Shown here in pieces: positions 26,940 to 45,103 of a stretch of DNA of 64,000 nucleotides. The stretch is from Muribaculaceae bacterium. Its GTDB lineage: Bacteria; Bacteroidota; Bacteroidia; Bacteroidales; Muribaculaceae. The notes under the pieces were generated by a model. The model was not told the DNA's origin and made no database searches. It saw only the letters and a list, made by a program, of their open reading frames with translations. The first letter of the stretch is position 1; each line of letters begins with the position of its first letter. Made by a program: the position numbers and the translations under genes. The stretch spans positions 20,603-84,602 of the forward strand of contig JAFUKL010000025.1 in the NCBI GenBank assembly GCA_017473615.1, written 5' to 3'.

Positions 26940-28019
26940 ATGAAAATATATAATAAATTAGGACTTTTTGCGGCAGGAACGTTGTTGATGGCTTCATGTG
27001 CCGTGAATGACCCTTTTGCTGACAACATGGATATGGGTGCGGTTGTGCCTACTGTTACATGGGAGCTTAACAGCTCTGTCTGCAAGGCGGGTAATGATGC
27101 CGGTTTCTTGGCAAAATATTATACCACAGAGGAAGGTGTGAATATCGATCGCTCTGAAGTGTGGGGTATGATTACCCGTACCGAGAGTGCTGCTGCTACT
27201 GTGAAGCTTGTGACTTCTCCTGCATATACACAAACGGTGAATTTTACAGATACAGTGCGCGGTTTTCACCTGATGGCTTCTTTCCCTCATAGTGAAGAAT
27301 ATTTGAATGGAAAAGAATATCATTTAAATGCTTCTTTCCCTACTTCTCGTACTTTGAGTCCTATCTCATGGGCTAATATTACAGAATGGGATGAAGAGAA
27401 CTTCACTAATTACTATCCTGCTACGTTTAAGGAAGAATTTTGTGCTACAATGGTTGATTATTTGACCGGTAGTGATACATATCTTTCAAGTTTGCGTCTT
27501 GTTTATACCAATTATGCGTATACTCAAGAAGATTTTGACGCTGTAAACGCTGCGTTCCCTGAAAATGAACCACTTCCTTTCTCTGATTCAGATGTTGCAG
27601 GCGAAACAAGAGGTGATTTCTGGTTTGATGTAGACACTGAGACTGTCGTGGGTTACTACTACATTAGACTGAAAGAAGACGGAACTGCTGAAGAAGTGCA
27701 GATAGAGTCTCCTGAAATGGCTCCGGAAGGCGTTTCTCAAGACAAGGTGTTCCCTGTTTATAAAGCTCCGCACTGGTTGTACAGCCGTTATTCCGACAAT
27801 ACCGGTGGTGCGGTGACTACAATGAAGGAAGAATATCGTCCTATGTGGAAAGCATTGGTGGAATTGATTCCGTTTGAGTCATGGATATATAACAGTGGAG
27901 ATCAAAACTATGCTGTCGAATTTACTCGCAAATATGCTATTGTGTCACAATTCAGAGTAATCGATACAGTTGACGGTGTAGGTAAAGATACTGACTATAA
28001 AACTGTTGAGCTAAACTAA
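26940..28019 (+). CDS. SusCD-operon lipoprotein (DUF4843-position)
   Basis: 359 residues with lipobox LMASC (Cys about 20). The rest looks beta-rich and soluble with no enzyme motif. Its position, third after SusC and SusD and before a PKD-like lipoprotein, matches the DUF4843 slot of a common Bacteroidota operon type, but I could not confirm the domain from sequence alone. Probably a surface accessory lipoprotein of the transporter. Gaps of 31 nt upstream and 15 nt downstream support one operon. Confidence 0.72.
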   Translation: MKIYNKLGLFAAGTLLMASCAVNDPFADNMDMGAVVPTVTWELNSSVCKAGNDAGFLAKYYTTEEGVNIDRSEVWGMITRTESAAATVKLVTSPAYTQTVNFTDTVRGFHLMASFPHSEEYLNGKEYHLNASFPTSRTLSPISWANITEWDEENFTNYYPATFKEEFCATMVDYLTGSDTYLSSLRLVYTNYAYTQEDFDAVNAAFPENEPLPFSDSDVAGETRGDFWFDVDTETVVGYYYIRLKEDGTAEEVQIESPEMAPEGVSQDKVFPVYKAPHWLYSRYSDNTGGAVTTMKEEYRPMWKALVELIPFESWIYNSGDQNYAVEFTRKYAIVSQFRVIDTVDGVGKDTDYKTVELN

Positions 28020-28034: not shown

Positions 28035-29852
28035 ATGAAAATGATAAAAAATATTTTAATTTTAATATTGGCAGTCTTTGCGGTTTCTTGTGTTGAAAAA
28101 GAACCGGATTACCAAAATTTCCCGGGAAAGGACGTAGATTTCTCTTTCTCGGTGGATGGTGATGAATATGCTGTCGATTACTATTATGTGTCAACAATCA
28201 AGTTTGTTAACACATCTGAAAAGAAAGGTAATGTTACATGGGACTTTGCTTCTAATATCAACCACACTAATGGTAAGATAAAAGATGCAGAAGGTAATGA
28301 TAAGGTGGTTTATGAGATCTTAGATGATTCAGAACCGGATGTAGTTAAAGTGAAATATGCAGGTTCAGGTAATTACACTGTAGCTCTTACTGTCGATGGT
28401 TATGGTACACGTACTTATCCTGTTCAAATCATGGACATCTCTCCATCTTTGAACATCGTGGAGCAAAGCACTGATACAGTAGTAATCGGCGAAACTCAAA
28501 TTACTATGGGTGTGGCTATTCCAAACCCTGATAATTTGCAATGTGCGTTCACTTGGGTTATGCCTGAAGGTACAACTCTTGCCGATGGTACTCCTATTGA
28601 AACCTATGAAGGTAGAATCGATGAAAACGGTAATATCACTACTCCGGGTGCTTTGAAATTTAAGAACGTGGGTTCTAACAAGATCACTTTGAGAACAGTG
28701 TTCGACGTGCCTACTGCAGAACGTCCTGAAGGAACTGCTGAAAACCGTCGTCTTGCCGATTCTTATGTAAACGTTCAAGTTGGTTTCACTGAAGAAGTTC
28801 CTACATTGTATTATGCTTCTTACGGTGGTAATATCAAGGCTTTGAAATTGATTCCTGAAGGAAATCTTCCTGAAGGTTCTAAGAACCTGCCATTCGATAT
28901 GGGTGTGTCAAGTGGTGTAACTCCACAAAGTATCGTATTTGCTCCTACAAAGGACGGCGACTTCATCTTCCTTCTTGACTGTGGTAAGAAGTTTACTTAT
29001 CAAAACGATACCGACGGTGTGCTTGGTGATGGTAAAATCACAGTGATGAGTGCAGATGGTACATACGCTAATACTGTAATTACTAACGTAGGCGGACATG
29101 CATTCTCTGACCCATTCCACGGATGTGTAAGAGATAACGATGGTGATGGTTATGCTGATGATCTTCTTTACACTGACCGTAACAATGGTGTAAGCTCTAT
29201 AGCAGTTACAGAACGTGGTAAAGTAGAAACTCGTCTTCAAGCAACAACAAGCAGCTACAATGTAGTAAACAATGCTACTCTTGGATACTATGGTCGCGGT
29301 ATTGCTTACGGTGCTGTGCACTCAGCTATTGCATTGGATAGTAAGGGCGTTTATTATTGGCCTAAGTCTTACAACGCAGCAGGTGTGTTCCGTTTCCGTC
29401 AAAGCGATATCGGTGTAACCGATAAGATTCCTTGCCCTATCTTGTTGGATGGCGCTCTTCCTAAGGCATTTGCTATCGATGAAACTAAGAAACACATGTA
29501 TATTTGGAGTACCGGTGGCGGTGGTGTAGAAGAAGGTTTCGTACAATATCCTCTTGTTGACTTTGAGGGTACTTTGAAAGCTACTGAATACACTAAGTAT
29601 GTGAAGATGGATGTAGCAGAAACTTCAGGTTCTTCTGTAGAAGCATTGCTTGTATCTCAATTTGCAGTACATTCTGCAACAGGTAATGTTTACTTCGGTT
29701 TCAATCCTGATGGCGATACAACACGTCCTACTGCAGGTATCTACTACTTTGATTACGCTGCTTCAGATGTAACAAAGACTCCGTTGGTAGGTACTGAAGG
29801 TGATAAGGTATTCGGTATCTGTATCAATCCTCGCGGAACAAAATTGTTCTAA
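28035..29852 (+). CDS. PKD-like / propeller surface lipoprotein
   Basis: 605 residues. Lipobox FAVSC (Cys about 19). The N-terminal half holds PKD/Ig-like modules (about 35-255; KFVNTSEKKGNVTWDFAS, then a second ending GFTEEVP). The C-terminal half reads like a repeated propeller (about 260-605). This fits the PKD-like family lipoproteins found last in SusC-SusD operons. Likely a surface glycan-binding or accessory protein; ligand unknown. A second in-frame ATG two codons on (28041) is possible. Followed by a strong terminator. Confidence 0.75.
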   Translation: MKMIKNILILILAVFAVSCVEKEPDYQNFPGKDVDFSFSVDGDEYAVDYYYVSTIKFVNTSEKKGNVTWDFASNINHTNGKIKDAEGNDKVVYEILDDSEPDVVKVKYAGSGNYTVALTVDGYGTRTYPVQIMDISPSLNIVEQSTDTVVIGETQITMGVAIPNPDNLQCAFTWVMPEGTTLADGTPIETYEGRIDENGNITTPGALKFKNVGSNKITLRTVFDVPTAERPEGTAENRRLADSYVNVQVGFTEEVPTLYYASYGGNIKALKLIPEGNLPEGSKNLPFDMGVSSGVTPQSIVFAPTKDGDFIFLLDCGKKFTYQNDTDGVLGDGKITVMSADGTYANTVITNVGGHAFSDPFHGCVRDNDGDGYADDLLYTDRNNGVSSIAVTERGKVETRLQATTSSYNVVNNATLGYYGRGIAYGAVHSAIALDSKGVYYWPKSYNAAGVFRFRQSDIGVTDKIPCPILLDGALPKAFAIDETKKHMYIWSTGGGGVEEGFVQYPLVDFEGTLKATEYTKYVKMDVAETSGSSVEALLVSQFAVHSATGNVYFGFNPDGDTTRPTAGIYYFDYAASDVTKTPLVGTEGDKVFGICINPRGTKLF

Positions 29853-30172: not shown

Positions 30173-31345
30173 ATGAAGAAATTTTTACTTTTTGGTGCTG
30201 CTGCAATGATGGCTACTGCAGCTAACGCACAACTTCAACAACTATGGGCTCACGATATGGCTGCTGCCGGTGCTGCTGTTCGTAACATTGTATTGGTAAG
30301 TGGAACTGAAGTTGCTGCAACTAACATCGGTTTCTCTGGTGGAAATGATAATGTGATTTTCTTTGACGCTAACGGCCAAACTGCAAAAGCTCATGATGTA
30401 GTTGCGTATACTAAATCAATTGAATTAGGTTCAACCGGTGAAGATGGCGTATTTACTCCGCTTGCACTTGGTCGTGGTATCGATACTGATGCTGTAGGTA
30501 ACATCATCGTTAACTTAGGTTTCCCTAATGCAACTCAAGGTACTGATTTCGTAGTTATAGCTCCTGACGGAACTATGAGACATATCCACTGTGAAGTTCC
30601 TGCTCCCGGAGAATCTGCTCGTGCCGACTTCTTTGCTTGTGCTGGTGATATCAATACAAATGGTTACCTTGTTCTTGCACCAAACGGAAAGAGCTATTTA
30701 GGCGTTTACAATATCTTTGACGGCGAACAAGACTCTGACTATAGCTACCTTATAGATGCTGACGAAGGTACTACACTATCTAACGAAGCAAAGGTTGTTT
30801 TCCCGGTTAAGACAGTTGCTGAAGACGCTGAAGCCGCTCCTGAACTCTTCGTATATCACCGTTCAGTAGCTGGTATACGTTACTCTGATGGTGCTGCTGC
30901 ATTGACAGTGTTGTCAGGTGATAACTTCCTACAAAAAACAGCAACTTGTACAGGTGTTGCTGCATTCCAAGTAGATGGTGTTAACTACATCGTAATGCCT
31001 ACTCTTGACGCTTCAGGTGTTCGTGCTAACGCATTCAACGTAGTAAACGTTGCTACAGGTGAAGTTGTTGCTAACTCTCAAGGTGCTGCAGGTTTCACTG
31101 CAAACTATGCTCAAGACTATTCTGCATGGGTTAACGAAGACGGTACAGTAAGCATCGCTCAATTGGTACAAGGTAAATACTTGGCTATGTTCAAACTTAC
31201 TCTTGGTTCTTCTGCAATCGAAGAAATCGCTGCTGACAACGCTGCTGTAGAATACTACAACCTACAAGGTGTTAAGGTTGCTAATCCTGAAAACGGTATC
31301 TTCGTTAAGAAGCAAGGTGCTAAAGCAACTAAGGTGGTTCTTTAA
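30173..31345 (+). CDS. highly codon-biased secreted protein with T9SS tail
   Basis: 390 residues. Signal peptide MKKFLLFGAAAMMATAANAQ. The body (about 21-355) is propeller-like with NHL/PD40-type strands and no catalytic motif. The final 30 residues form a T9SS sorting tail (VEYYNLQGVKVANPENG...ATKVVL), almost identical to those at 4552 and 41276. Codon use is as extreme as in the SusC/SusD genes (GGT, GCT, AAC, CGT), and its leader is A-rich, so it is probably abundant on the surface. It has its own terminator. Function unknown; proximity suggests a link with the upstream transporter. Confidence 0.72.
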   Translation: MKKFLLFGAAAMMATAANAQLQQLWAHDMAAAGAAVRNIVLVSGTEVAATNIGFSGGNDNVIFFDANGQTAKAHDVVAYTKSIELGSTGEDGVFTPLALGRGIDTDAVGNIIVNLGFPNATQGTDFVVIAPDGTMRHIHCEVPAPGESARADFFACAGDINTNGYLVLAPNGKSYLGVYNIFDGEQDSDYSYLIDADEGTTLSNEAKVVFPVKTVAEDAEAAPELFVYHRSVAGIRYSDGAAALTVLSGDNFLQKTATCTGVAAFQVDGVNYIVMPTLDASGVRANAFNVVNVATGEVVANSQGAAGFTANYAQDYSAWVNEDGTVSIAQLVQGKYLAMFKLTLGSSAIEEIAADNAAVEYYNLQGVKVANPENGIFVKKQGAKATKVVL

Positions 31346-31372: not shown

Positions 31373-31406
31373 GGCTGCGACAATGGTCGCAGCCTTTTTG
31401 TTTTTT
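31373..31406 (+). terminator. terminator of the secreted-protein gene
   Basis: 9-bp stem GGCTGCGAC/GTCGCAGCC with a 4-nt loop, followed by TTTTTGTTTTTT. Confidence 0.9.
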
Positions 31407-31618: not shown

Positions 31619-32068
31619 TCAGTCAGCCAGAAAGTATTTGTCATTAGGGGTTATGTCATTATCTTCTAAAAAACGACGATATTCTTCACTGAATGAGATT
31701 TTCTTATGATGTTCTTTCTGATTCTTGATATACTCAATAATGGCATTCTTATTATCTAATGAATATGTAAATGCGGCATAACTTTCGCCCCAGCCGATAA
31801 AAGCAGGAAACGATGGATTTCCTTTCAGCCACTTGCTTGTTGATTCTTTTAGCCCTCTCATAAATTCGGATACAGCTATGGTTGGAGGAATGTCAACCAA
31901 CATATGTATATGATCCGGCATCCCACCTATACGATATAATTTAGCCTTTTTATTTCTTGTATATCCTAAAATATACGCATACAATTCTCTTTCGTAGCAT
32001 TCAGAAATCGCCGGTGTGCTACGTTTAGTGCGAAATACGATATGGTAAAGGAATCGAGTATAACTCAT
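31619..32068 (-). CDS. IS200/REP-associated Y1 tyrosine transposase
   Basis: 149 residues, the usual size of Y1_Tnp (PF01797). It shows the HUH motif PDHIHML (His53, His55) and the catalytic Tyr113 in IIEYIKNQKEHHKK. It starts from an ATG with a -7 box TATCTTTG 15-23 nt upstream. Both sides carry hairpin arrays, so it may act as a RAYT that mobilises or maintains the short palindromes rather than as a simple IS. The frame is intact, so it is probably active. A cellular role cannot be read from the sequence. Confidence 0.88.
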   Translation of the reverse strand: MSYTRFLYHIVFRTKRSTPAISECYERELYAYILGYTRNKKAKLYRIGGMPDHIHMLVDIPPTIAVSEFMRGLKESTSKWLKGNPSFPAFIGWGESYAAFTYSLDNKNAIIEYIKNQKEHHKKISFSEEYRRFLEDNDITPNDKYFLAD

Positions 32069-32401: not shown

Positions 32402-32437
32402 ATAAGCCGTATAAGAAGTATAAGCCGTATAAGAAGA
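32402..32437. repeat. 18-bp tandem repeat, two copies
   Basis: ATAAGCCGTATAAGAAG(T/A) occurs twice in direct tandem with one difference. Looser AATAAG/TAATAAGGC units precede it from about 32376. Confidence 0.75.
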
Positions 32438-32440
32438 TAT

Positions 32441-32464
32441 GCCCTATGGGGCTTTTCTTTTTTT
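32441..32464 (+). terminator. terminator-like hairpin before the secreted-enzyme operon
   Basis: GCCC-TATG-GGGC followed by TTTTCTTTTTTT. It would stop rightward readthrough from the hairpin array before the promoter at 32499. Confidence 0.6.
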
Positions 32465-32498
32465 GTACTTTCTTTAGAGGCTGTAATGAAAATTTTTA

Positions 32499-32506
32499 TA
32501 TCTTTG
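32499..32506 (+). promoter_or_regulatory. -7 promoter element of the secreted-enzyme operon
   Basis: TATCTTTG matches TAnnTTTG; an imperfect -33 TTTA lies 22 nt upstream. The A-rich leader to the ATG at 32580 is 73 nt. Confidence 0.65.
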
Positions 32507-32579
32507 TAAATTGATAATTTATGTTTAATTTACCTATATTGTAACTTAGCAGAAAAACTAATAAACACAATACTACACA

Positions 32580-35078
32580 ATGAAGAAATTTACAGTATTA
32601 TTATGGGCTGTGGTTGCTTGCTTTATGCAACTCAACGCTCAGGTGGAGTTAAACGGTACAACCTATAAGGTGGATACTTTAATGGAACGCAGTTTAGGCC
32701 CGGGTGTAAAGCACTTGCGAGTGCGTATCCCTGATTATCCGTTGAACATTTTTATGCTCGAAGTGGATATGACACACCCTTATAGTCGTGTGGAAACCAC
32801 GCAGGGAAAAGGTGTTCTTGGAAAGACCGAACTGCTTGCCGATGCGTATAATCGCCACAAGGCAATGGGAAAGAAACCTATTGCCGGCTGTAATGCTTCA
32901 TTCTGGTGTGTATCGTCGCAAGTTCCATGGTATAACTTCATGCCGGGCGTACCTCATGGAGCAGAAGTGGTAAATGACACGATATATGTGAATACCAATC
33001 GCAATGGGGTGTTTGACTTCAATGGAGGTACTGTAAACACTGCTTCTACTATTATTACCAAGGACGGAAGAGCACTTGTGGCACGTCATGAATGGTATGG
33101 CTGTGTGAAATCACCTAAGTTCAGTGCCGATCAAGAAATCATTCAAGTGAATAAGTGCTGTGATTACAATCAGTTGGTGCTGTTTAATCATGCTCGCGGC
33201 AGAAACAGTAAATTCTTTACATACCCAACCGGTTGTGATTATATTTTCTTGAAATTGAAAGAAGACTCTAAGTGGGCTATCGCAAAAGATATAAAATTTG
33301 AGGTGGCAGAAATAAAAACTGGCGTTGATGATCAGGTGCTTGGCAATTATGATGCTTGTCTTGTAGCTGATGGCGACTATAAGGCAGAAATGGCAAAACT
33401 TGCAGTGGGTGATGAAGTGGCAATTAATACTTATTGGTTTGACATCGACGGCGACAGAACTCCTATCGAAGTTGAAAACATGACCGAGGGTGAAGCTCAT
33501 GTGATGTTGAAAGGGGAAATCACCAATCGTGCCACAGCCGACTATGGTGCAAAGGTGTACTCACGTACAGCATACGGAAATAATGCCGACGGAACAAAAC
33601 TATATATGATAGTGATAGAAATGGCTACCAATCCTGAGTATGGTCGCTCAAAGGGTTGTACAGCCACAGTGATGTGTCAATTGTGGAAACAATTTGTTCC
33701 CGACCTATGGAACGTGGCAAACATGGATGCCGGTGGCTCTGCACAAATGTTGATAGACGGAGCGGTTGTAAACAAAACTACCGAGGCCACTGCTCGTGCC
33801 GTGGCAAACGGTATGATGTTGTTCTCTACTGCTCCTGCCGAAGATGCTGACGTGATAGCGTCGTTGGCATTTGAAAAGCCCAACTTGAAAACTCCGATTT
33901 ATTATAGTACATCACCTAATGTACTTGGCTATAACAAATATGGTGAATTGATTTCGGAAAATGTAGATGTGACTTACACTTGTTCGGAGTCAGTAGGTGC
34001 ACCAAGTGCCAACGGCAAGGTAATCGAGGTGGGAGCAACTCCGGGTTATGGCACAATCACAGCACATTATAACGGAGTGGAGGTAACTGCTCCTATTCAA
34101 GTACAAAACAGTGAGTTTGCAATTCGTCTGAAACCGATGATACTTATCGATACCAATCGTGAATATCCGATAGAAATCACGACTGAAGCAAACGGAGAAA
34201 CATTGACATACGACCCGGCTCGTTTCACTTGGGAAATCGAAGACGAAACGGTGGTTTCTATCGAAAACGGCGTGCTTAAAGGCTTGGCAGAAGGAACAAC
34301 CAAGATAAAAGGAACACTTGGAACATATACCGATGAAGTGACAGTGAAAGTGGAAGTAGCTCCTTCGCCGGTGATGAATCAGACTTGGGACGGCTGGACA
34401 GTGACAAGTGCCAATCTATCGGCTGACGCTGTGCTAAGTGCCGACGGTGTGGCAACATTCTCTTATGCCGGTAAGCGTAAAGCAACTATCACGCTTGAAA
34501 AAGACGTGATGATATACAGTCTTCCGGACAGTGTTATATTTGAAGTGACAACAAGTACTCCACTAAACGACCTTACAGTGGATATACGCACGTCGTTGTT
34601 GCCTGAAACCAATGAGGTGATATTTGCAGAACAAGTGGGGCTGCCAATAGGAACACACAAGTGGGATTTGATGGATTATATAGGAGGTAGAGAAGATATA
34701 GGCAACTATCCGGTTAATATAAAGAAGATTATATATAATCTAAGTTCAAAGAGCGGCTATGTGAGTGGCGAAAATGCTATCTCGGCTAAGTTGTATAGCG
34801 TTTATAAGAGTTATACAAGTGGTGTAGAAGCCGTAAACGGTGTGGTGAAGTCGGTGAACATATATCCACAAAACGGGAACTTTGTGGTGAGTGCGTCAGG
34901 CATCGATGAAGTGACTGTGGAAGTGTATAACATATCGGGAGTGGTAAACTATCGTGAAGTGGTGACTGTGAACGGAGGAAGTGCCGTAGTATCTCCCAAT
35001 CTTGCTAACGGTATGTATATAATAAAGGTTACAGGTGGTGGCGATACCGCTGTATGTAAAATGGTCGTAAAAAATTGA
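32580..35078 (+). CDS. phosphodiester glycosidase (NAGPA domain) with T9SS tail
   Basis: 832 residues. A signal peptide ends at LNAQ (about residue 21). The NAGPA/phosphodiester glycosidase domain (PF09992) covers about 60-420, with GCNASFW, YSRTAYG and NMDAGGSAQMLIDG (Asp383-Ser387). A bacterial Ig-like (BIG2-type) module (about 510-600), a jellyroll-like region (about 600-740) and a T9SS tail (VNIYPQNGNF...ICKMVVKN pattern) follow. The family removes GlcNAc from phosphodiester-linked sugars. First gene of a five-gene operon; the next gene is a paralog 17 nt downstream. Possible substrates are phosphosugar-linked polymers of foreign walls or capsules (inference). Confidence 0.85.
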   Translation: MKKFTVLLWAVVACFMQLNAQVELNGTTYKVDTLMERSLGPGVKHLRVRIPDYPLNIFMLEVDMTHPYSRVETTQGKGVLGKTELLADAYNRHKAMGKKPIAGCNASFWCVSSQVPWYNFMPGVPHGAEVVNDTIYVNTNRNGVFDFNGGTVNTASTIITKDGRALVARHEWYGCVKSPKFSADQEIIQVNKCCDYNQLVLFNHARGRNSKFFTYPTGCDYIFLKLKEDSKWAIAKDIKFEVAEIKTGVDDQVLGNYDACLVADGDYKAEMAKLAVGDEVAINTYWFDIDGDRTPIEVENMTEGEAHVMLKGEITNRATADYGAKVYSRTAYGNNADGTKLYMIVIEMATNPEYGRSKGCTATVMCQLWKQFVPDLWNVANMDAGGSAQMLIDGAVVNKTTEATARAVANGMMLFSTAPAEDADVIASLAFEKPNLKTPIYYSTSPNVLGYNKYGELISENVDVTYTCSESVGAPSANGKVIEVGATPGYGTITAHYNGVEVTAPIQVQNSEFAIRLKPMILIDTNREYPIEITTEANGETLTYDPARFTWEIEDETVVSIENGVLKGLAEGTTKIKGTLGTYTDEVTVKVEVAPSPVMNQTWDGWTVTSANLSADAVLSADGVATFSYAGKRKATITLEKDVMIYSLPDSVIFEVTTSTPLNDLTVDIRTSLLPETNEVIFAEQVGLPIGTHKWDLMDYIGGREDIGNYPVNIKKIIYNLSSKSGYVSGENAISAKLYSVYKSYTSGVEAVNGVVKSVNIYPQNGNFVVSASGIDEVTVEVYNISGVVNYREVVTVNGGSAVVSPNLANGMYIIKVTGGGDTAVCKMVVKN

Positions 35079-35095
35079 TGATAATTTGATAGGAT

Positions 35096-37597
35096 ATGAA
35101 AAAGGTTGTTACTCTGTTGGTTGTTGCAATGGCAAGTACATTTCTTGCTAACGCAAAAATAACACTTAATGGAAAATCGTGTAGTGTAGATACTATATTA
35201 CACCGTCAAATAGGTCCGGGCGTGGTGCAAACAATAGTGCGTGTGCCTGAGTATCCATTGAATGCTTACGTGCTTGAAATGGATATGAATAATGAGTATA
35301 ATCGTGTGGAAACTACGCAGGCAAACAACACACTTGGCAAGCAGGAATACTTGGTAAATGCCTATAAACGTCATCAAGGATATGGCAAAAAACCGTTGGC
35401 GGCTTGTAATGCGTCGTTCTGGGTAGTATCGGGTACAGGTAAGCCTTACACCGATTTTATGATGGGTGTACCATTTGGCGGCGTGGTTGTGAACGATACA
35501 CTTTATACCAATACCAACGATGCTGCTATCGACGGCTGGAACGGAGGTGGTGGTTATACAGGTTCGGCTATTGTGGATAAGAATAATAAAGTTCATGTAG
35601 GGCGTCACATGTGGTATGGCTGTGTTAAATCGTCAAAATTCAGTGCCGACCAAAGCATAATACAAGTGAATAAACGTTGTAATACCGGGCAGTTGGCATT
35701 GTTTAATCACGCAGTGGGTCGCAGTCACACATTTTACGCAGTTGCCGATTGCCATTACATTTACTTGAATTTTAAGGCAGGTGAAAAATGGGCAATTGCC
35801 AAAGATGTGAAATTTGAAGTGGCTGAAATAAAATTATCGGCAAACAATCAAGTGCTTGGCAATTATGATGCTTGTCTTGTAGCTGATGGCGACTATAAGG
35901 CAGAAATGGCAAAACTTGCAGTGGGTGATGAAGTGGTACTAAACAACTATTGGTACACAGCCGATGGCGATGGAACACCTATCGCTGTGGAAAATATGGT
36001 GGAAGGAAATGCATACGTGATGCTGAATGACGAACTTACGGCTCGTAATACCAATGAAACATACAATTCTCAAATCTATTCTCGTACTGCATACGGAACA
36101 AATGCCGACGGCTCAAAACTATATATGATAGTAATAGATAAGGCTACACATCCGGTATATGGTACATCGGCAGGTTGCAGTACTACTGTGATGTGTAATT
36201 TGCTGAAATATCTTGTTCCTGATGTATGGAATGTGGCAAACTTTGATGCAGGAGGTTCTGCTCAAATGCTTGTGAGTGGAAAGGTAATCAATAAGACGAC
36301 AGAGGCCTCTCCTCGTGCTGTTGCCAATGGTATGATGATGTTTTCTACAGCACCGGTCGATGGTAACGATGTAATTACATCGATTGCATTTGAACACCCT
36401 CACATGAAATCTCCTATTTGTAACAGATATGAGCCTAATGTACTTGGTTACAATAAATATGGTGAATTGATTTCGGAAAATGTGCCTGTGGTTTACACTT
36501 GTTCCGAAAATGTAGGTATAATAAGTGAAGACGGAAAGGCTGTAGAAGTGGGAAGCACTCCGGGATATGGTACAATTACAGCAAAATATAACGGTGTAGA
36601 AGTAACAGCTTCTATAGAAGTGATTAATTCTGAATTTGCAATAAGAGTGAAACCGATGATTCTTATCGATAACAAGCGAGAATATCCTATTGAAATTTCT
36701 ACTATAATAGGATTGGATACTATCGCATATGACCCTGCTCAATTCACATGGGAAATCGAAGACGAAACGGTGGCTACTATCGAAAACGGTGTTCTTAGAG
36801 GCTTGGCTGAAGGTACAACAAAAATAAAATGCACGCTTGGTAAATACAGCGATGAAACATCTGTGAAAGTGGAAATGATACCGGCTTATGTAGTAAATCA
36901 AGATTGGAATGGCTGGACAGTGACAAGTACCAATCTATCGGCTGTCGCTGTTCTAAGTGCCGACGGCGTACTATCATTCGGTTATTCCGGTAAGCGTAAG
37001 GCAACGATTACTCTTGAAAAAGATATAATGATTTACAGCCTTCCGGACAGTGTGATATTGGAAGTGACAACAACAACTCCGTTGAATGACCTTACTGTGG
37101 GTGTCAGCACAGCATTGTTACCGAAAACCAATGAAGTTATATTTGCCGAGGGAGTTGGACTTCCAATAGGAACTCACCGATGGGACTTGATGGACTGTTT
37201 AGGCGGATCTGAGGATATTGCTAACTATCCTGTTAACATCAGTAAATTGCTTTATAACATCAGTTCAAAGAGTGGCTATGTGAATGGCGAAAATACAATA
37301 TCAACAAAGTTATATAGCGTTTATAATGGTTATACAAGTGGTGTAGAAGCCGTAAACGGTGTAGCGAAGTCGGTGAACATATATCCGCAAAACGGAAACT
37401 TTGTGGTGAGTGGTTCGGGTATCGACGAAGTGATTGTGGAAGTGTATAACATATCGGGAGTAATGAATTATCGTAAGGTGTTGACCATAAACGGTGGAAG
37501 TGCTGTAGTCTCTCCAAATCTTGCCAACGGTATGTATATAATAAAGGTTATAGGCGGAGGAGATACTGCCGTATGCAAAATGGTGGTGAATGATTGA
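35096..37597 (+). CDS. phosphodiester glycosidase (NAGPA domain), tandem paralog
   Basis: 833 residues with the same architecture as the gene before it: signal peptide, NAGPA domain (about 60-420; FDAGGSAQMLVSG), Ig-like module and T9SS tail. An 85-nt block (35852-35936) is identical to 33336-33420 although most of the two genes differ clearly, a sign of recent gene conversion. The duplicate may have a different phosphodiester specificity. The next gene follows after 33 nt. Confidence 0.85.
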   Translation: MKKVVTLLVVAMASTFLANAKITLNGKSCSVDTILHRQIGPGVVQTIVRVPEYPLNAYVLEMDMNNEYNRVETTQANNTLGKQEYLVNAYKRHQGYGKKPLAACNASFWVVSGTGKPYTDFMMGVPFGGVVVNDTLYTNTNDAAIDGWNGGGGYTGSAIVDKNNKVHVGRHMWYGCVKSSKFSADQSIIQVNKRCNTGQLALFNHAVGRSHTFYAVADCHYIYLNFKAGEKWAIAKDVKFEVAEIKLSANNQVLGNYDACLVADGDYKAEMAKLAVGDEVVLNNYWYTADGDGTPIAVENMVEGNAYVMLNDELTARNTNETYNSQIYSRTAYGTNADGSKLYMIVIDKATHPVYGTSAGCSTTVMCNLLKYLVPDVWNVANFDAGGSAQMLVSGKVINKTTEASPRAVANGMMMFSTAPVDGNDVITSIAFEHPHMKSPICNRYEPNVLGYNKYGELISENVPVVYTCSENVGIISEDGKAVEVGSTPGYGTITAKYNGVEVTASIEVINSEFAIRVKPMILIDNKREYPIEISTIIGLDTIAYDPAQFTWEIEDETVATIENGVLRGLAEGTTKIKCTLGKYSDETSVKVEMIPAYVVNQDWNGWTVTSTNLSAVAVLSADGVLSFGYSGKRKATITLEKDIMIYSLPDSVILEVTTTTPLNDLTVGVSTALLPKTNEVIFAEGVGLPIGTHRWDLMDCLGGSEDIANYPVNISKLLYNISSKSGYVNGENTISTKLYSVYNGYTSGVEAVNGVAKSVNIYPQNGNFVVSGSGIDEVIVEVYNISGVMNYRKVLTINGGSAVVSPNLANGMYIIKVIGGGDTAVCKMVVND

Positions 37598-37630
37598 TTC
37601 GAATATAATAACAACTAAAAAATATATATA

Positions 37631-40312
37631 ATGGGAAAATTAGGTAAAAAGATTTTTGCATTAATGCTTACTTTGAGTTTTTTGCCTGCATTTGCGGCTG
37701 AATCTTATGTGGAAATGAAGCATGAAATGCGTTCTGTATGGTTGACCACCGTTTGGGGTATCGACTGGCCTTCTAGCCAAGGTACATCAGAGGCGATGGC
37801 TGAAACCCAAAAGGCACAAATGATCAAGATTCTTGATTCATTGGCTGTGAATAATTTCAACTCGGTGTGTTTCCAAGTGCGTGGTATGAGTGATGCGATG
37901 TATAAATCAACGTATGAACCATGGTCAAACTATTTGACCGGAAAACGTGGGGCAGAACCGGCCTGGGATCCATTGGCTTTTGTTGTTGAAGAATGTCATA
38001 AGCGTGGTTTGGAGTGTCTTGCATGGGTGAATCCATATCGTTATGCAAGTGAATCTGCCGACTGGAAAGAAGGTGGAGATATGACCGGATATGTGGAAAA
38101 GGGTTGGATTATCGATGCCAATTCCGGAACAAAGATTTTGAACCCGGGAAAACCTGAAGTAATAGATCACATCGTTAAAGTTCTTGAAGAAATCGTAGTG
38201 AAATATGATATAGATGGTATGCTTTTCGATGACTATTACTATAATAGTGCTCCTGACACAGGTGATGCTGCCGACTATACAGCATATAAAACAGCCGGTG
38301 GCTCAATGACAAAGGCAGACTGGCGTCGTGATAATGTACACAAATTCATTAAAGGCGTGTATGAAATGATACAAAAGCATAAACCTTGGGTACGTTTCGG
38401 TCAGGCACCTCCGGGAACCACATATACAACTTCTTCTTTAGCATCAAAATATGATTTAGAAGCTTGTCCGGGAGGTTATGAACTATGCTACAGCAGTCAA
38501 TATGTTGATATTTTGCGATTGATGGACGAAGGTGTGATAGACTTTATCTCACCGCAAGTATATTGGGGTATAGGTTCAAGCCCATCTGATTATTCAAAAA
38601 TTACACCTTGGTGGGGAAAAGTGTCAAAACGATTTAACCGTCATTTGTTTGTAGCTCAAACAATACAGTACCTAAAAAATAATGGTACTGCAACGAGTGG
38701 TAATACTTCATTTGCTGAATTTTATGATCAAGCAATGATTAATCGTAGAACAGCTCAACTTGGCTCGGCAGGTTCTATATACTATTCACAAAAGTATATG
38801 AATTATAAACAAGGCGGTCAGACATTTGGTAACTTTATGAAAGCTAAAGCATATCAAAAACAAGCGATAATGCCTGCAATGGATTGGAAGACTGTGACTG
38901 ATCCGGGAAAAGTTGAAAATTTGAGCTTTGATGAATCAACAAGCCTACTTTCTTGGACTGCAAAGACCGGAACAGAAAATATGCGTTACACAGTGTATGC
39001 CGTACCTACCGGAGTAGACCCGTCTGCATTTGCCAAAGAACAAGATTATTTGGTGGGTGTAGCTTATAGCAATTCTTGCACTATTCCTGACGACTACAAG
39101 AGTGGCTACTATTATGCAGTGTGTGTATATGACCGTTATGGCAATGAATGGGCTGCCAATACATGGAAACAAAATTATGCTGAAACATTGGCTGCTCCTA
39201 CATTGGTTTCACCGGCAACAGGTTATGAAACCGATAAAGTTTTTGAATTTTCTTGGAATACCGTAGCAGGAGCAGAGAAATATGCTCTTGACATAGCTTC
39301 TGACGCTTCTTTCTTGAATGTGGAAAAGTCGGTACAGACTACAGCTACTTCTATTTCAATAGAAGAAGTGTATGGCTCAATTTCAAAGAATAAAACTTTA
39401 TATTGGAGAGTGAGAGCTATTGCAAAGGGAAAGAATGACGGAATTTCTGAAAGTAGAACATTTAAATTTAAAGTGGCACAACTACTTACACCTGCTAATG
39501 AAGAAGAAGGTCTTGACCCTAAGGTTAATTTCACATGGGCTGTTACAACCGAAGGCGCTCCTGTAACGTTGGTTGTTGCAGAAGATTTGAATTTTGAAAA
39601 TGTAGTATTTGAAAGAGAATCAACAACCGGTAGCTATACCGCAAAAGTATATGAATTGCATCCATTGAAGAGTTATTATGCACGCGTTATACAAGATGGA
39701 AAGCAATCTGATTATGTGAAATTCTCAACAAAAGCAATGCCTTGTACTCCTCCTACATTTAAGTTCCCTCTAAACGGTGGAATTTGTTATGCTAATTCAA
39801 TGATAGAAATAGCTCCCCAAGATGGTGCTGAAATAGTGTTGATTCAAGTAGATAAGACCAATGCATTCGGTGCTAGCAAGAGCCAAAAGAAAAATGAAGG
39901 TTATATACCGGGCGTAGCCGCTACTGAATTCTTGCTATCTCGCAAGTATCCGATGGAGGATGGTGTTACTTATTATGCACGTGCTCAGGTTCAATATTAT
40001 GACGAAGCAAATGAAATGCAAACTACCGATTGGGGTGAAACAATTTCGTTTGTATATTCATCTAACCAAAGTGCAATAGACAATGTTACAACCGCTGCAG
40101 ATGTGAAACTTGTCGGAAGAAGTGTGGTAATCAATGCCGACCGTGAAACCAGTGTTAAAGTCTCGGTTGTCTCAATGCTTGGTAATGAAGAGGTTTTATA
40201 TGAAGGTAAGACATCAAGCGAACAAGTATCTCTTGAAGGCTTGTCACATGGAATGTACATTATCAAGGTGGTACTTGACAACGAAGTGCGTACATTGAAA
40301 TACATGAAATAA
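37631..40312 (+). CDS. GHL10 (DigH/YngK-type) glycoside hydrolase with T9SS tail
   Basis: 893 residues. A signal peptide ends near AFA (residue 23). The GHL10 domain (PF02638) covers about 30-400, with MRSVWLTTVWGIDWP, CFQVRG, LAWVNPYR and an acidic DGMLFDDYYYN strand. Fibronectin-like modules (about 430-525, 525-620 and 615-720) and a T9SS tail ending HGMYIIKVVLDNEVRTLKYMK follow. E. coli DigH, of the same family, cuts peptidoglycan glycan strands lacking stem peptides. A co-transcribed amidase would make that substrate, so peptidoglycan is a reasonable target (inference). Confidence 0.87.
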   Translation: MGKLGKKIFALMLTLSFLPAFAAESYVEMKHEMRSVWLTTVWGIDWPSSQGTSEAMAETQKAQMIKILDSLAVNNFNSVCFQVRGMSDAMYKSTYEPWSNYLTGKRGAEPAWDPLAFVVEECHKRGLECLAWVNPYRYASESADWKEGGDMTGYVEKGWIIDANSGTKILNPGKPEVIDHIVKVLEEIVVKYDIDGMLFDDYYYNSAPDTGDAADYTAYKTAGGSMTKADWRRDNVHKFIKGVYEMIQKHKPWVRFGQAPPGTTYTTSSLASKYDLEACPGGYELCYSSQYVDILRLMDEGVIDFISPQVYWGIGSSPSDYSKITPWWGKVSKRFNRHLFVAQTIQYLKNNGTATSGNTSFAEFYDQAMINRRTAQLGSAGSIYYSQKYMNYKQGGQTFGNFMKAKAYQKQAIMPAMDWKTVTDPGKVENLSFDESTSLLSWTAKTGTENMRYTVYAVPTGVDPSAFAKEQDYLVGVAYSNSCTIPDDYKSGYYYAVCVYDRYGNEWAANTWKQNYAETLAAPTLVSPATGYETDKVFEFSWNTVAGAEKYALDIASDASFLNVEKSVQTTATSISIEEVYGSISKNKTLYWRVRAIAKGKNDGISESRTFKFKVAQLLTPANEEEGLDPKVNFTWAVTTEGAPVTLVVAEDLNFENVVFERESTTGSYTAKVYELHPLKSYYARVIQDGKQSDYVKFSTKAMPCTPPTFKFPLNGGICYANSMIEIAPQDGAEIVLIQVDKTNAFGASKSQKKNEGYIPGVAATEFLLSRKYPMEDGVTYYARAQVQYYDEANEMQTTDWGETISFVYSSNQSAIDNVTTAADVKLVGRSVVINADRETSVKVSVVSMLGNEEVLYEGKTSSEQVSLEGLSHGMYIIKVVLDNEVRTLKYMK

Positions 40313-40357
40313 AAAAGCAACTATTATAAACTAAATCTAAAAAAAACGAGAAAGAAA

Positions 40358-41263
40358 ATGAAAAAATTGCTATTATCATTAGCCGTTTTTGCAAGTTCTT
40401 CCGCATTTGCTCAGGTGTTTGACGTGGCATCGGTTGAAAAACTGGACATGTCCGCTACCGGAGTGAATTATGTGGCAGGAATCAGCCCGAAGGGTGATTA
40501 TATCCTTTTGACGGGTTCGTCGCTCGAAGGGCTTGTGAAGTATGATCTTGCCACAGGCAGGAGAGATGTTTTGTCAACAGCTTTAGGTGCCGGCAACGAC
40601 GCCAAGATTTCTGCTGACGGCAAGAATGTGGTGTACCGCGAAGACAAGATTGTCAAGGGGCTTCGCTATACCGATGTGGTGGATGTGAATACAACCACCG
40701 GAGTGTCTACGAGACTGCTGAAATCCACTCGCAACCTTAATGCAATCAATTTGCAGGGAGGACGTGCGATGATGGTAAACGGAGGACGCATTACTCAAAA
40801 GAGAGTGGCAAAGACTGTAAGCAATGCAAGTGTTGCGCCTATAGTATCCATCGATAACCGTCAGTTGATGATTACCAAAAACGGTACTACAAGCGTGCTT
40901 TCACCTAATGGAACTCAGCACAGCTACATTTGGGCATCGGTGTCTCCCGATGGTACAAAGGTGTGCTATTATGTGTGCGGAGTGGGCTGCTATGTGAGCA
41001 GTATTGACGGAAACGATGTGAAATACTATGGTATTCTTCGCGCCGCTCAATGGTATGACAACAATACTATTGTGGGCATGAAAGACGTGGACGACGGACA
41101 CACAATCATAGCTTCGTCTATCATAGCCATGACACTTGAAGGCAAGTCACAATGTCTTACCGACAATTCATTGAAAGCAATGTATCCTTATCCGTGTCGT
41201 GAAGCCAAGAAGATAGTATTCTCTACCTATGAGGGTGAAAACTATATTATTAACGTTAAATAA
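40358..41263 (+). CDS. secreted propeller-like protein
   Basis: 301 residues. Signal peptide MKKLLLSLAVFASSSAFAQ, then PD40/WD40-like repeats (GISPKGDYILLTG, KISADGKNVVYRE, SVSPDGTKVCYYV) that probably form a small propeller. It ends NYIINVK with no sorting tail, unlike the other operon members, so it may stay in the periplasm or bind a partner. No catalytic motif. It begins 45 nt after the GHL10 gene and ends 12 nt before the amidase. Related in style to the propeller of the peptidase at 4552. Confidence 0.65.
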   Translation: MKKLLLSLAVFASSSAFAQVFDVASVEKLDMSATGVNYVAGISPKGDYILLTGSSLEGLVKYDLATGRRDVLSTALGAGNDAKISADGKNVVYREDKIVKGLRYTDVVDVNTTTGVSTRLLKSTRNLNAINLQGGRAMMVNGGRITQKRVAKTVSNASVAPIVSIDNRQLMITKNGTTSVLSPNGTQHSYIWASVSPDGTKVCYYVCGVGCYVSSIDGNDVKYYGILRAAQWYDNNTIVGMKDVDDGHTIIASSIIAMTLEGKSQCLTDNSLKAMYPYPCREAKKIVFSTYEGENYIINVK

Positions 41264-41275
41264 CCGGATTGAGCT

Positions 41276-44200
41276 ATGAAAAAATTGATTTTATCATTGA
41301 TAGCGGTAGTGATGACCGCAGGCGCAATAAATGCCGGACAGAATAAGTCTATTAAGGAGGCTCGCATTTATATAAATCCGGGACACGGTTCATGGACCGG
41401 AAACGACCGTAATATGCCTACAATCAATCACCCTACAGGTGACACCACGGGATTCTATGAGTCAAATACCGACTTGTGGAAAGGCTTGAAACTTCGCCAA
41501 ATCTTGATTGACTGGGGAATGCCGGCAGAAAATATCTGTATGAGCCGTGTAAAGAACGGTCCGTACCCTCATAATGATGCTGAAGCAGAAAAGTATAACA
41601 GAAATCTCACGGAAATAGCGAGAGAATGTAATAGCTTTAATGCCGATTATTTTATTTCTATCCACTCCGATGCAGGTTTGGAAAATCACACGATACTAAT
41701 TCATAAGGGATATACCGTCCCTGCCGAAGATGCCGATATGCACTGTGGCGGTGATGGTTGTGTGGCTGATTCAGAAGGTTGGCACACTCACTATGGAGAC
41801 TATTCTACTCCGGAAAATCCCAATACATACGGTTCAAAGGAGTTGATGCAGATATGCAGTGATATGGCTAATACCACATGGCCTTATCTGAATTCAAACG
41901 GAATCGATGTGATGAATTCGTCATATATGCAACCGGGCAGAGACCCTTATATCCGCGGTGATTATACCTTTTATAAAGGTTGGAATACTCCGGCAGATAA
42001 GAAAGGGCAGGTTTACACCGGTTATCTTGGAGTGCTGAACAGAAACATTACTCCGGGATTCCTATCGGAAGGTTTTTCTCACCAGTATTATCCTGCCACA
42101 CACCGTGCGTTGAACCCCGACTATTGCGGTCAGGAAGGTCTGCGTTATGCACGTGGTATGGCTGAATGGTTCGGATGGGAAAAAGACCCGAAAGGTTATA
42201 TAATGGGTTCTGTAAAAGACATGCATACTCGCCTTGAACACCAATATTACAATTATGCCGAAGGTTCAATCGACCAATGGATGCCTATCAACAATGTAGA
42301 AGTTACATTGTATAAAGGTGGAGTTGAAATCGCTACTTATAAGGGTGATAACGAGTGGAACGGTGTGTTCGTGTTTGAAAAACTTGAACCGGGTGATGAT
42401 TATACAATTTTGGCAAAGGCTCCGGGTTATAAATCAAATTATGAACTTGCAGAGATATTAGGTAAGGAAAATGAAATGCCTGTTTATACAGTAGTGGCAA
42501 ACGAAACCACTTATCCTATTATCTATCTTGAAACAGAGGATTATGAACCAAATCCTTGTTACAACTATCCTGATCCGGAACAAGAAAGATGGTTGAAGGT
42601 GGCGGGTAAATATGAAATGCGTCAAGATTATGTAAACAAGTCATTTGCTGAACTTGAAGGAAAGACTATCCGTCGTGAACTTGCTCATGGCGATTCAATC
42701 TATGCCCTTGCTATCGATGCTGAAAATAATCCTCACATCTATTGCTATAATGCAAAAACTCAAGAATTGTATTTTGAATTGAGTACAGAAGGTGTGGGTG
42801 ATGCAAGCGACGAACGTGAGATGATGAAGATTTCTGATATAGCATTCACAAGTGACTCTGTTCTTGTAGCTTGTAACCTTGAACACATGTCATTTGCGGC
42901 AGTAGGTGAAGCGAATGGTACTTTACGTTTTTATAAGTGGGCTAAAGATGATGTTACTCGTTCTCCAATAGGAAACCCCGAAATATGGTTTACTTCTACA
43001 CATAGTAATGCTGCCGGTAATTTCTCAAATGCAACAACCGGTCAATCATTAGCTATCAGTGGTCGTTTGGAAAATTGTAAGGTAATAACAACAGCAAAAA
43101 CACAGTCCGGAGTCAAGATTCGTATTCCAATATTCACAATTTCACGTAAGGGGTTAGTTGAACAAATACGAAATCAAAGTGATGATATTACAACCGAAAC
43201 AATAGGTGAAGATTATCGTATAGTAGTATCTCCTCGTGATGATAATGCTATCGTATTAGATGGCTCTATCTGTACTCCGAGTGAATTTGCTTTGAATAGC
43301 ACTGATGTGGGAGCTCCAACAAAGTTGGGTGCTGTAAGCGCTGATTTGTTACCTGTTGCAACTGTAGGAGCAAATTACTTTAAGTATGCTAAGCATGCAT
43401 TGATGGTAACTCCGAAACTAAATGCTGAAGGAAAGGTTACCGGAGTGGAATTGTATGATGTACAAGATGGTTTTGATAAAGCGAAATTGATAGAAACCAC
43501 CAATACCGACATTGACGCTGCTGAGTGTGCTTATGTAATGGTAAGTTCTCATGTGGAAGAGGATGATATTACATTGTATTTGAATAAGGATAATACAGTG
43601 AGCCGATTTACAACTCAAGATGTAGAACAAACTTACTATGGCAATGTATATGCATACGATTTGGATGTGACTGCTGCCGATGGTAACTATACATTCACAT
43701 TTAAAGCAAACGAAGATTGCTTGAAGGGAGGAAAGTTGATTTTCTACGATGAAACATCTAAGAAAGTTGGCGAAATTGCACTTGATAATGTGGTAGCCGG
43801 AGCTAACGAAAAAGTGGTTGCTGCAACAGAACTTCCGGGTACAGTAGGACAAGTTCTTAGTTGGGCTGTTGAAGTATCAAGTTACAATGTAACACATATT
43901 CTTCCATTGTTGTCAAAAGATGATTATAAGCTAAGTCGTGCTTATGTTACAGTAGATAACTCTCCAGTTTCAGCTACATTTGGTAAGACTTATGTATCTG
44001 ATTATCTTGGAGCAAGTAAGACCGGAAACGGTGTGTACGTTTATGACCAAGATTACGTTAAGGAAAATGAAACTGCTCATACAACCGGTGTGAAATTCAA
44101 TACTAACCAAGGTATTGCATTGGATATGTATGGTAATGTATATGTGGCTGATAATGCTGCAGCAAATTCAGGCGTTTATAGAGCTAATCAAAATGATTTC

Positions 44201-45055
44201 ACATTCTCTCAATTCTTTGAAGGAACAAGAACTTCAGGTGTGATTAGTAATAATGGCGTTGAAGTAGGCGGTATGACATCAAGCGTTGCTTTCATTGGCG
44301 ATAAGATGTACACTTACAGCAAGAATACAGCAGGCAAATATGTGATTAATATCTATGATATGTCATTAATTAACACATTCCCTGTGACATCATGGTCAGT
44401 TGCTCCAACTCAAACTATTGCAATGCCTAAGGATATGACAGCCGATGCATCTATCGCTCCTGTTGAGCAAGGTGTCTGGGTGGTACAAACACTTATTTCA
44501 ACCGGTAATAAGGAAACAAGTCCGGTACTTATGTTTGTTGACAATGATGGCAATGTTACATTCAACCAAGGTCTTGCTCAAAATCATTATCTGCTTTCAG
44601 GTGCTGCAGGTAGTGCTTTGGCTGCAACAAAAGATGGTAAAACTCTTGTAGTGAATGATGAAAACGGTGTATTCCAATTCTATGATGTGGAATGGAATGG
44701 TTCTACTCCTACATTGACATCTAAATATAGCTATGAACATGAAATCGGTGTAGGTGCTAAACGTATTCAAGACGGTGTTTCTATTGAACAAATGACATTT
44801 GATTATGCAGGTCGTTTGGTTGCTTCAGGACACTATCTTGGTGTATTCTCAATTCCTACAGAAAACAATGTGTGTGAGACACCGGCAAGAAGAACTGTAA
44901 CTTGCGGTCAGGCTTCTGTGGCTATAGAGAACGTGAAAGACGATACTGACGCACCGGTAGAATTCTATAACTTGCAGGGTGTAAAGGTAGCTAATCCTGA
45001 AAACGGTATCTTTATCAAGAAACAGGGTTCAAAAGCAACCAAAGTAGTGCTATAA
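41276..45055 (+). CDS. N-acetylmuramoyl-L-alanine amidase with large C-terminal region and T9SS tail
   Basis: 1259 residues. A signal peptide ends near INA (residue 20). An Amidase_3 domain (about 28-300) carries the zinc ligands His37 (INPGHG), Glu62 (FYESN) and His130 (SIHSDAG), with probable catalytic Glu265 (LSEGFSHQ). A carboxypeptidase-regulatory-like module (about 330-425) leads to a long propeller-like region (about 430-1210). The T9SS tail (VEFYNLQGVKVANPENG...KATKVVL) closes it. It should cut the bond between N-acetylmuramic acid and L-Ala at or beyond the cell surface. The surface tail argues against routine cell division and for an external wall substrate. Last gene of the operon. 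Confidence 0.9.
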   Translation: MKKLILSLIAVVMTAGAINAGQNKSIKEARIYINPGHGSWTGNDRNMPTINHPTGDTTGFYESNTDLWKGLKLRQILIDWGMPAENICMSRVKNGPYPHNDAEAEKYNRNLTEIARECNSFNADYFISIHSDAGLENHTILIHKGYTVPAEDADMHCGGDGCVADSEGWHTHYGDYSTPENPNTYGSKELMQICSDMANTTWPYLNSNGIDVMNSSYMQPGRDPYIRGDYTFYKGWNTPADKKGQVYTGYLGVLNRNITPGFLSEGFSHQYYPATHRALNPDYCGQEGLRYARGMAEWFGWEKDPKGYIMGSVKDMHTRLEHQYYNYAEGSIDQWMPINNVEVTLYKGGVEIATYKGDNEWNGVFVFEKLEPGDDYTILAKAPGYKSNYELAEILGKENEMPVYTVVANETTYPIIYLETEDYEPNPCYNYPDPEQERWLKVAGKYEMRQDYVNKSFAELEGKTIRRELAHGDSIYALAIDAENNPHIYCYNAKTQELYFELSTEGVGDASDEREMMKISDIAFTSDSVLVACNLEHMSFAAVGEANGTLRFYKWAKDDVTRSPIGNPEIWFTSTHSNAAGNFSNATTGQSLAISGRLENCKVITTAKTQSGVKIRIPIFTISRKGLVEQIRNQSDDITTETIGEDYRIVVSPRDDNAIVLDGSICTPSEFALNSTDVGAPTKLGAVSADLLPVATVGANYFKYAKHALMVTPKLNAEGKVTGVELYDVQDGFDKAKLIETTNTDIDAAECAYVMVSSHVEEDDITLYLNKDNTVSRFTTQDVEQTYYGNVYAYDLDVTAADGNYTFTFKANEDCLKGGKLIFYDETSKKVGEIALDNVVAGANEKVVAATELPGTVGQVLSWAVEVSSYNVTHILPLLSKDDYKLSRAYVTVDNSPVSATFGKTYVSDYLGASKTGNGVYVYDQDYVKENETAHTTGVKFNTNQGIALDMYGNVYVADNAAANSGVYRANQNDFTFSQFFEGTRTSGVISNNGVEVGGMTSSVAFIGDKMYTYSKNTAGKYVINIYDMSLINTFPVTSWSVAPTQTIAMPKDMTADASIAPVEQGVWVVQTLISTGNKETSPVLMFVDNDGNVTFNQGLAQNHYLLSGAAGSALAATKDGKTLVVNDENGVFQFYDVEWNGSTPTLTSKYSYEHEIGVGAKRIQDGVSIEQMTFDYAGRLVASGHYLGVFSIPTENNVCETPARRTVTCGQASVAIENVKDDTDAPVEFYNLQGVKVANPENGIFIKKQGSKATKVVL

Positions 45056-45060
45056 CGAGA

Positions 45061-45103
45061 ATTAAAGTCTTCAGAACATTTTAATGTCTCTGAAGACTTT
45101 AAT
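45061..45103 (+). terminator. 15-bp hairpin after the amidase gene
   Basis: A perfect 15-bp stem (45061-45075 with 45089-45103) starts 5 nt after the stop codon. The following sequence is only moderately T-rich, so it may protect the 3' end as well as stop transcription. Confidence 0.65.

Follow-up and report, generated by a model that had tools for sequence, protein, structure and literature searches.

A SusCD locus with exported enzymes that looks like a cell-wall scavenging toolkit of some gut bacteria

Do five closely packed genes of a Muribaculaceae bacterium encode an exported pathway for cell-wall degradation, and whose walls would it degrade? The question was raised by a window of 64,000 nucleotides (nt) from contig JAFUKL010000025.1 (positions 20,603 to 84,602 of the forward strand), which belongs to a genome of 2.0 Mb in 51 contigs with a completeness of 78% (G000; handles for genomes (G), loci (L) and genera (g) are our own). 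A first-pass annotation had described two NAGPA-family phosphodiester glycosidases (NAGPA1, NAGPA2), a GHL10 glycoside hydrolase, a propeller protein (PROP301) and a zinc amidase (AMI), packed with gaps of 12 to 45 nt, as a five-gene unit. The packing was confirmed by open reading frame (ORF) calling, with five ORFs on the plus strand and gaps of 17, 33, 45 and 12 nt. The unit itself had been drawn too small and its importer missed: judged from the sequence, the enzyme genes are half of a bigger unit, a SusCD locus that comprises some nine to ten genes. The importer half, directly upstream on the same strand (21932-29852), contains the genes for SusC, SusD and the lipoproteins LP359 and PKD605. 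Sequence comparison shows a genuine gene set that is conserved, and its products look like a cell-wall scavenging toolkit of some gut bacteria, which would break down the walls of other bacteria extracellularly and import the fragments as food. The best reading, to which we give a probability of about 0.65, is a SusCD utilization locus whose exported enzymes act on the cell walls of foreign bacteria, for which we infer substrate, uptake, reaction order and activity.

The strongest result of the analysis is the collinearity in other families. When 295 genomes of the order were searched with the LP359 profile, 5 gave a match, namely the own genome and four that belong to other families. Two of the latter, from two different families (L283, L284), showed the order SusC-SusD-LP-PKD-NAGPA-GHL10-PROP-AMI, with all genes on the same strand and 4 to 298 nt apart, and NAGPA, GHL10 and Amidase_3 exceeded the Pfam cut-off in both. 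SusC, PKD, GHL10 and NAGPA were found in the other two (L281, L282), one of them with a BadF-type kinase nearby. The SusC leading the locus showed 43-50% identity in L281, L283 and L284 and 59% in L282. This eight-gene order in other families indicates that the order in the window is old and that many genomes of the family to which the window belongs have since lost the linkage of the halves.

Within that family the halves still occur together. The amidase was searched in 149 genomes, NAGPA1 in 397 and LP359 in 397 with the same handles; NAGPA1 was found in 124 of 397 genomes (E<=1e-40) and LP359 in 117 of 397 (E<=1e-15). With a NAGPA cut-off of E<1e-85, which was picked after viewing the lists, 102 genomes contained both, 4 NAGPA only, 15 LP359 only and 276 neither; at 1e-40 the corresponding numbers were 110, 14, 7 and 266. 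The association was retained after stratification by genus (Cochran-Mantel-Haenszel chi2 75). For the amidase, 43 of the 149 genomes contained both, 3 the amidase only, none LP359 only and 103 neither, using a cut-off of E<1e-30, likewise picked after viewing the lists, which excludes for example G127 (7.9e-27), G074 (5.7e-22) and G032 (1.3e-21); with the looser limit of 1e-3, matches were obtained in 126 of the 149 genomes. By position and inheritance the degradative enzymes are linked to the SusCD pair. As a control served a gene of the same window (16871-19702) for a secreted M6 metalloprotease without a match to the tail model of the type IX secretion system (T9SS). It was found in 100 of 149 genomes and showed no association with LP359 (both 30, control only 70, LP359 only 13, neither 36; p 0.70). 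Two other drivers of the co-occurrence were considered and rejected: the T9SS, since SprA was present in 380 of the 397 family genomes, and clade structure as the sole driver, since the control gave the p-value of 0.70 and the test stratified by genus stayed strong.

An amidase gene downstream of NAGPA, on the same strand and at most 6 kb away, was found in 20 of 43 mapped loci and 10 of 17 genera, which bears out the proposal that the gene association is conserved in relatives; 6 of the 43 loci came from the amidase query and contributed 4 of the 20, loci fetched by NAGPA alone gave 16 of 37, and the count omits 14 other amidase-query loci in which no NAGPA was seen. Several misses were contig ends, and separations were seen for g18 loci and for g7, g14, g24 and g30, which carry another NAGPA type. 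PROP stood immediately 5' of AMI in nearly all loci with the upstream side covered, including genera without neighbouring NAGPA or GHL10; L058 is an exception for the first amidase of its pair, and L286 for its divergent amidase-like protein. GHL10 followed NAGPA in 6 of 43 mapped loci, only in g1, g19 and g28, and elsewhere within the family accompanied the SusCD half. For 20 fetched LP359 loci SusC-SusD-LP359-PKD605 was complete in 17, and in the rest either a contig end or an ORF called on the antisense strand interrupts it; GHL10 was present in 12 and NAGPA in 4 of these 20 (L169 and three g18 loci with a NAGPA of the contig-22 type described below). Among the best 80 of 98 LP359 relatives, taken with 10-kb flanks, GHL10 was found in 60, NAGPA in 42 and a PKD605 homologue in 77. 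By record title, nearly all of these 80 loci come from Muribaculaceae, Prevotellaceae, Porphyromonadaceae or Bacteroidales, many of them from ruminants, and the exceptions include an Odoribacter, a Limisoma and a Rickettsiales. The longest-ORF caller used here let antisense ORFs displace SusD and the lipoprotein in L282, LP359 in L174 and PKD605 in L166, so all counts of gene presence are lower bounds. Divergent arrangements were seen as well: the SusC-SusD-LP359 block adjoins the enzyme block in divergent orientation in G098, and in G018 (L169) this block and the start of a NAGPA gene are divergent neighbours at a contig end.

The importer half starts with SusC, a TonB-dependent outer-membrane receptor (21932..24991, plus strand; TIGR04056 with 656.6 bits, above cut-off; Pfam Plug and TonB_dep_Rec), and SusD, a SusD-like lipoprotein that would serve as its lid and binding partner (25004..26908, plus; PF12771 with 77.5 and PF12741 with 72.3 bits, both above cut-off). 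The two genes are adjacent with a gap of 12 nt, the arrangement by which a polysaccharide utilization locus (PUL) is recognised. LP359 (26940..28019, plus), the marker lipoprotein of the locus, follows SusD in relatives and matched no family of Pfam or NCBIfam; its AlphaFold model had a pLDDT (predicted local distance difference test) of 87.9 and gave general beta-sandwich matches with low TM-scores (template modelling scores) in a structure search. The lipoprotein PKD605 (28035..29852, plus) is weakly PKD-like (PKD_4, E 0.038, below cut-off), and its remainder may be propeller-like.

Among the enzymes, GHL10 (37631..40312, plus; PF02638 with 196.9 bits, E 5.9e-58, above cut-off) matched the structure of Cwp19 (5oq2) with an E-value of 2e-66. 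GHL10 residues were read by hand from the 5oq2 alignment against the 13 proposed active-site residues that are discussed in the accessible part of the Cwp19 structure paper (PMC5765458), and 10 of the 13 were found identical (W36, Q77, W127, R132, D195, D196, Y197, Q295, Y297, S368). Cwp19 is connected with autolysis in C. difficile (PMC6016235, accessible sections), while DigH of E. coli breaks down denuded glycans and works at the cell's own septum (PMC12288456, likewise from a portion of the text). The window protein resembles these GHL10 enzymes in its sequence match to Cwp19 and in the proposed Cwp19 residues it mostly retains; it differs from them by its T9SS tail and by having amidase and importer genes as neighbours.

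AMI (41276..45055, plus) is an Amidase_3-type zinc amidase of 1259 amino acids (aa) with a long C-terminal part, which may be propeller-like, and a tail. It misses the gathering score of PF01520 (23.1 versus 27 bits, E 8.2e-5), and a search of solved structures with the single sequence was uninformative; the profile search with 39 homologues did better and led to solved Amidase_3 structures (4rn7, E 3.5e-10). H17, E42, H110 and E245 of the aligned domain were invariant in 39 of 39 rows; from the family we take them to be the zinc ligands His-Glu-His and the catalytic Glu. The amidases at the same position in L283 and L284 exceed the Pfam cut-off with 59.1 and 61.1 bits. Structure matches of the profile, invariant catalytic positions and these relatives together argue for a genuine amidase, and for both amidase (39/39) and GHL10 (10/13) the retention of catalytic residues on which the first-pass annotation had staked its proposal was largely found. 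PROP301 (40358..41263, plus; 301 aa, signal peptide by eye) had no Pfam match; its profile, also of 39 homologues, led to the beta-propeller of TolB (4r40, E 8.3e-11). Three more long amidase paralogues were seen in the own genome (C39:15912-19715, C39:77523-80528, C43:886-3954). On its contig 15 (L286, 2936-9018) three consecutive genes of the same strand encode a protein with a tail, an amidase-like protein and GHL10, possibly a second wall-acting set.

NAGPA1 (32580..35078, plus; PF09992 with 44.6 bits, E 2.4e-11) and its tandem copy NAGPA2 (35096..37597, plus; 69% identical; 49.6 bits, E 6.8e-13) are divergent members of the phosphodiester-glycosidase family, each with an Ig-like domain. 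Residues 19-425 of NAGPA2 gave an AlphaFold model with a pLDDT of 93.3, for which Foldseek returned NAGPA folds including 3ohg (E 3.0e-12) and vertebrate NAGPA. The single-sequence search of solved structures was again uninformative for NAGPA2 and the profile search better, the homologue profile leading to the BACOVA_00430 structure 3ohg with an E-value of 8.9e-19. The window pair shows what defines the family, the NAGPA fold (modelled for NAGPA2) and PF09992 scores above cut-off. In the alignment both copies retain the Asn of NxxF, the Arg of RT, Asp/Glu, D-x-GGS and a later Arg, while the Arg of VVDGR is lost. Compared to the DUF2233 protein BACOVA_00430 and the uncovering enzyme they match in fold and differ in the VVDGR and DGGGS motifs. 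NAGPA from the four genomes of other families shows DGGGS together with a DGR-type motif (L284 has Glu in place of Asp) and reaches Pfam scores of 95.6 bits (L284) and 110.3 bits (L283). In the accessible part of PMC12419801, Bacillota proteins are described that join NAGPA with TelC and ligand-binding domains, some also with an NlpC/P60 peptidase for which peptidoglycan is the predicted target; these combinations are consistent with a wall role.

Further NAGPA types were encountered. Contig 22 of the own genome (39821-49734; L007 9821-19734) carries four tandem NAGPA genes with canonical DGGGS and DGR-type motifs, and no other gene of the system was among the ORFs listed there. Genus g18 has relatives of this type inside its SusCD-GHL10 locus. 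Another NAGPA type, shorter at 523-627 aa, was seen beside a different SusCD pair in L116, L117, L118 and L119, with a GDPD phosphodiesterase in L116 and a GDSL esterase in L117.

T9SS tails had been claimed for four of the five proteins. Using the model TIGR04183 (cut-off 23), C-terminal sorting domains were recognised in three, NAGPA1 (38.7 bits), NAGPA2 (32.6 bits) and GHL10 (26.6 bits), while AMI and PROP301 gave no match to this model. The tail of AMI is near-identical to the end of TAIL390, a secreted protein of 390 aa (30173..31345, plus; no Pfam or NCBIfam match), and resembles the tail of the protein at 4552-6798; the tail shared with TAIL390 makes a fourth T9SS tail likely, so the claim stands by model for three proteins and as a likely one for the amidase. 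The own genome encodes SprA (2767 bits) and two PorU-type sortases above cut-off. In other families the model recognised tails of both NAGPA and GHL10 for L284 and L282, the tail of GHL10 for L281, and none for L283.

In genus g18 type I dockerins above the Pfam cut-off were found instead on GHL10 (L174, L175), NAGPA (L174) and an amidase (L054), and companion proteins of about 460 aa in L166, L174 and L175 also end in such a dockerin above cut-off. A common alternative C-terminal module on three enzyme classes suggests joint delivery. Of 15 genomes tested for cohesins, 6 gave matches, and the single-contig genome G172 gave none. The dockerin-bearing proteins lie at L174 12199-18848, L175 5471-11128, L166 3545-4924 and L054 857-4627, and further loci show dockerin-like tails by eye.

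Genes for the salvage of wall sugars were found near parts of the system. In the own genome (L061) a paralogous PROP-AMI pair lies beside a divergent NamZ (exo-N-acetylmuramidase) and a sodium symporter; in G070 (L179) NamZ and a symporter precede the SusCD block, from which two other genes separate them. Kinases with weak NAGK/BadF matches, below the curated cut-offs, were seen near five NAGPA-PROP-AMI loci (L097, L107, L109, L115, L132). The system resembles the salvage of N-acetylmuramic acid (MurNAc) by Tannerella forsythia (MurT, MurK, MurQ; AmpG), another member of the Bacteroidales that uses external wall sugars; in the accessible part of PMC5790795 MurT is a sodium-symporter-type transporter and MurK a PF01869 kinase, counterparts of which lie near parts of the window system. 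As described there, the T. forsythia pathway consists of transport and cytoplasmic steps, without the SusCD-NAGPA-GHL10-amidase set. With the SusCD PULs of Bacteroidota the locus shares SusC-SusD, lipoproteins and secreted degradative enzymes in a single locus; it differs by the set of amidase, GHL10 and NAGPA and by the T9SS tails on enzymes. This enzyme set points to the bacterial wall and not to a plant or host glycan. In the open literature, subscription journals being mostly uncovered, we found no description of this locus or of any SusCD locus for peptidoglycan. As a side observation, at least two NamZ copies were counted in 40 of 43 LP359 genomes and in 22 of 106 others (149 genomes: both 40, second NamZ copy only 22, LP359 only 3, neither 84), an unstratified comparison that looks partly clade-driven.

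How might such a system work? NAGPA1, NAGPA2, GHL10 and the amidase would leave the cell via the T9SS and be surface-bound or released. The amidase would strip stem peptides off MurNAc, as its family suggests, and GHL10 would cleave the denuded glycan strands left behind, by analogy with DigH and Cwp19. Wall polymers are attached to MurNAc through an N-acetylglucosamine-1-phosphate (GlcNAc-1-P) linkage. NAGPA could release sugars or polymers held by sugar-1-phosphate diesters, for example at this link, and its role on wall phosphate polymers is the weakest step that we infer. SusC-SusD with LP359 and PKD605 would bind the fragments and import them, as in other SusCD systems, and the sugars would be fed into salvage in the cell interior by NamZ, a symporter for sodium and sugar and a kinase of the BadF type. 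PROP301, the regular partner of the amidase, would perhaps bind substrate in the periplasm. More tentatively, and at somewhat less than even odds in our estimate, this would be a dedicated peptidoglycan utilization locus that is ancient in Bacteroidales, with a SusCD pair for wall fragments, enzymes exported by the T9SS (dockerin-tagged in rumen relatives), and NAGPA as a bacterial "uncovering enzyme" freeing MurNAc from GlcNAc-1-phosphate-linked polymers. The conserved gene set and the LP359 marker make the question of peptidoglycan use testable; consequences would concern the supply of muropeptides to the host and nutrient cycling in rumen and gut.

Other explanations have to be weighed against a scavenging locus. 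The first-pass annotation left attack and scavenging side by side and set both against self-maintenance. Its direction was right, and scavenging fits better than attack. An attack on competitors, lysed by surface wall hydrolases with uptake as a by-product, draws on the harm that an exported amidase and GHL10 could do to Gram-positive walls and on the autolysis link of Cwp19 (PMC6016235, same sections), but the SusCD importer co-occurs with the enzymes and is joined to them in other families, which favours scavenging with uptake, and no immunity or toxin gene was noticed in the unit, where no model-based search for such genes was made; we consider attack unlikely. Another polymer, such as a host or plant glycopeptide or a phosphoglycan, with the amidase fold recruited to a different amide bond, appears rather improbable. 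It would agree with the divergence of AMI below the Pfam cut-off, the altered NAGPA motifs and the many relatives among metagenome-assembled genomes from the ruminant gut; the invariant catalytic positions of the amidase, the Amidase_3 and NAGPA proteins that score above cut-off at the corresponding position in other families, and the NamZ, symporter and kinase neighbours speak against it. Remodelling of the cell's own envelope or surface polysaccharide has a precedent in DigH at the E. coli septum (PMC12288456, in the portion cited above), but T9SS tails put the enzymes outside the outer membrane, and the distribution of LP359 (117 of 397 genomes) and NAGPA (124 of 397) is patchy despite SprA in nearly all genomes, which makes self-maintenance very improbable.

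We are aware that a number of observations weigh against the utilization locus for foreign wall as preferred here. At the level of single proteins, GHL10 deviates at 3 of the 13 proposed Cwp19 residues (S250A, G328A, F367Y); the window NAGPA pair has VIEMA/VIDKA in place of VVDGR, with loss of its Arg, and DAGGS in place of DGGGS, and aligned g28 and g19 members have Lys for the Arg of RT; PROP301 lacks a recognised tail. At the level of loci, 15 genomes have LP359 without a strong NAGPA, NAGPA was found in only 5 of 20 loci fetched by the amidase query, and in g18 it was non-adjacent to PROP-AMI in 6 of 6 mapped loci, about 7 kb apart in L103. The amidase was seen in 1 of the 80 LP359 loci, where the 10-kb flank stops before the amidase in collinear loci (L188). 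NamZ is in any case widespread across the family (133 of 149 genomes), and no PUL-type regulator gene was noticed beside the locus, where no model-based search for one was made.

Between the two halves of the locus TAIL390, whose homologue occupies the same place in G042, is followed by a hairpin and T run (31373..31394, plus), likely the terminator of the SusCD half, and by a Y1 (IS200-like) transposase (31619..32068, minus strand; PF01797 with 83.7 bits). Repeats flank the transposase on both sides (31400-32480). In G042, of the same genus, the genes are collinear from the end of SusD to AMI without the transposase ORF, and the gap between TAIL390 and NAGPA1 measures 368 nt. Upstream of NAGPA1 the box TATCTTTG (32499..32506, plus) was read as a -7-like promoter box, on the assumption that the Bacteroidota consensus is TAnnTTTG. 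A single promoter for the five enzyme genes, as claimed at first, is plausible from this box; a two-box promoter pattern found no match there. A hairpin with 12-nt arms at 45064-45075 and 45089-45100 (45064..45100, plus) closes the unit after the last gene. Two proteins of the alpha-amylase family (20163-21596 and 51693-54515) flank the region, the latter with a T9SS tail above the Pfam cut-off.

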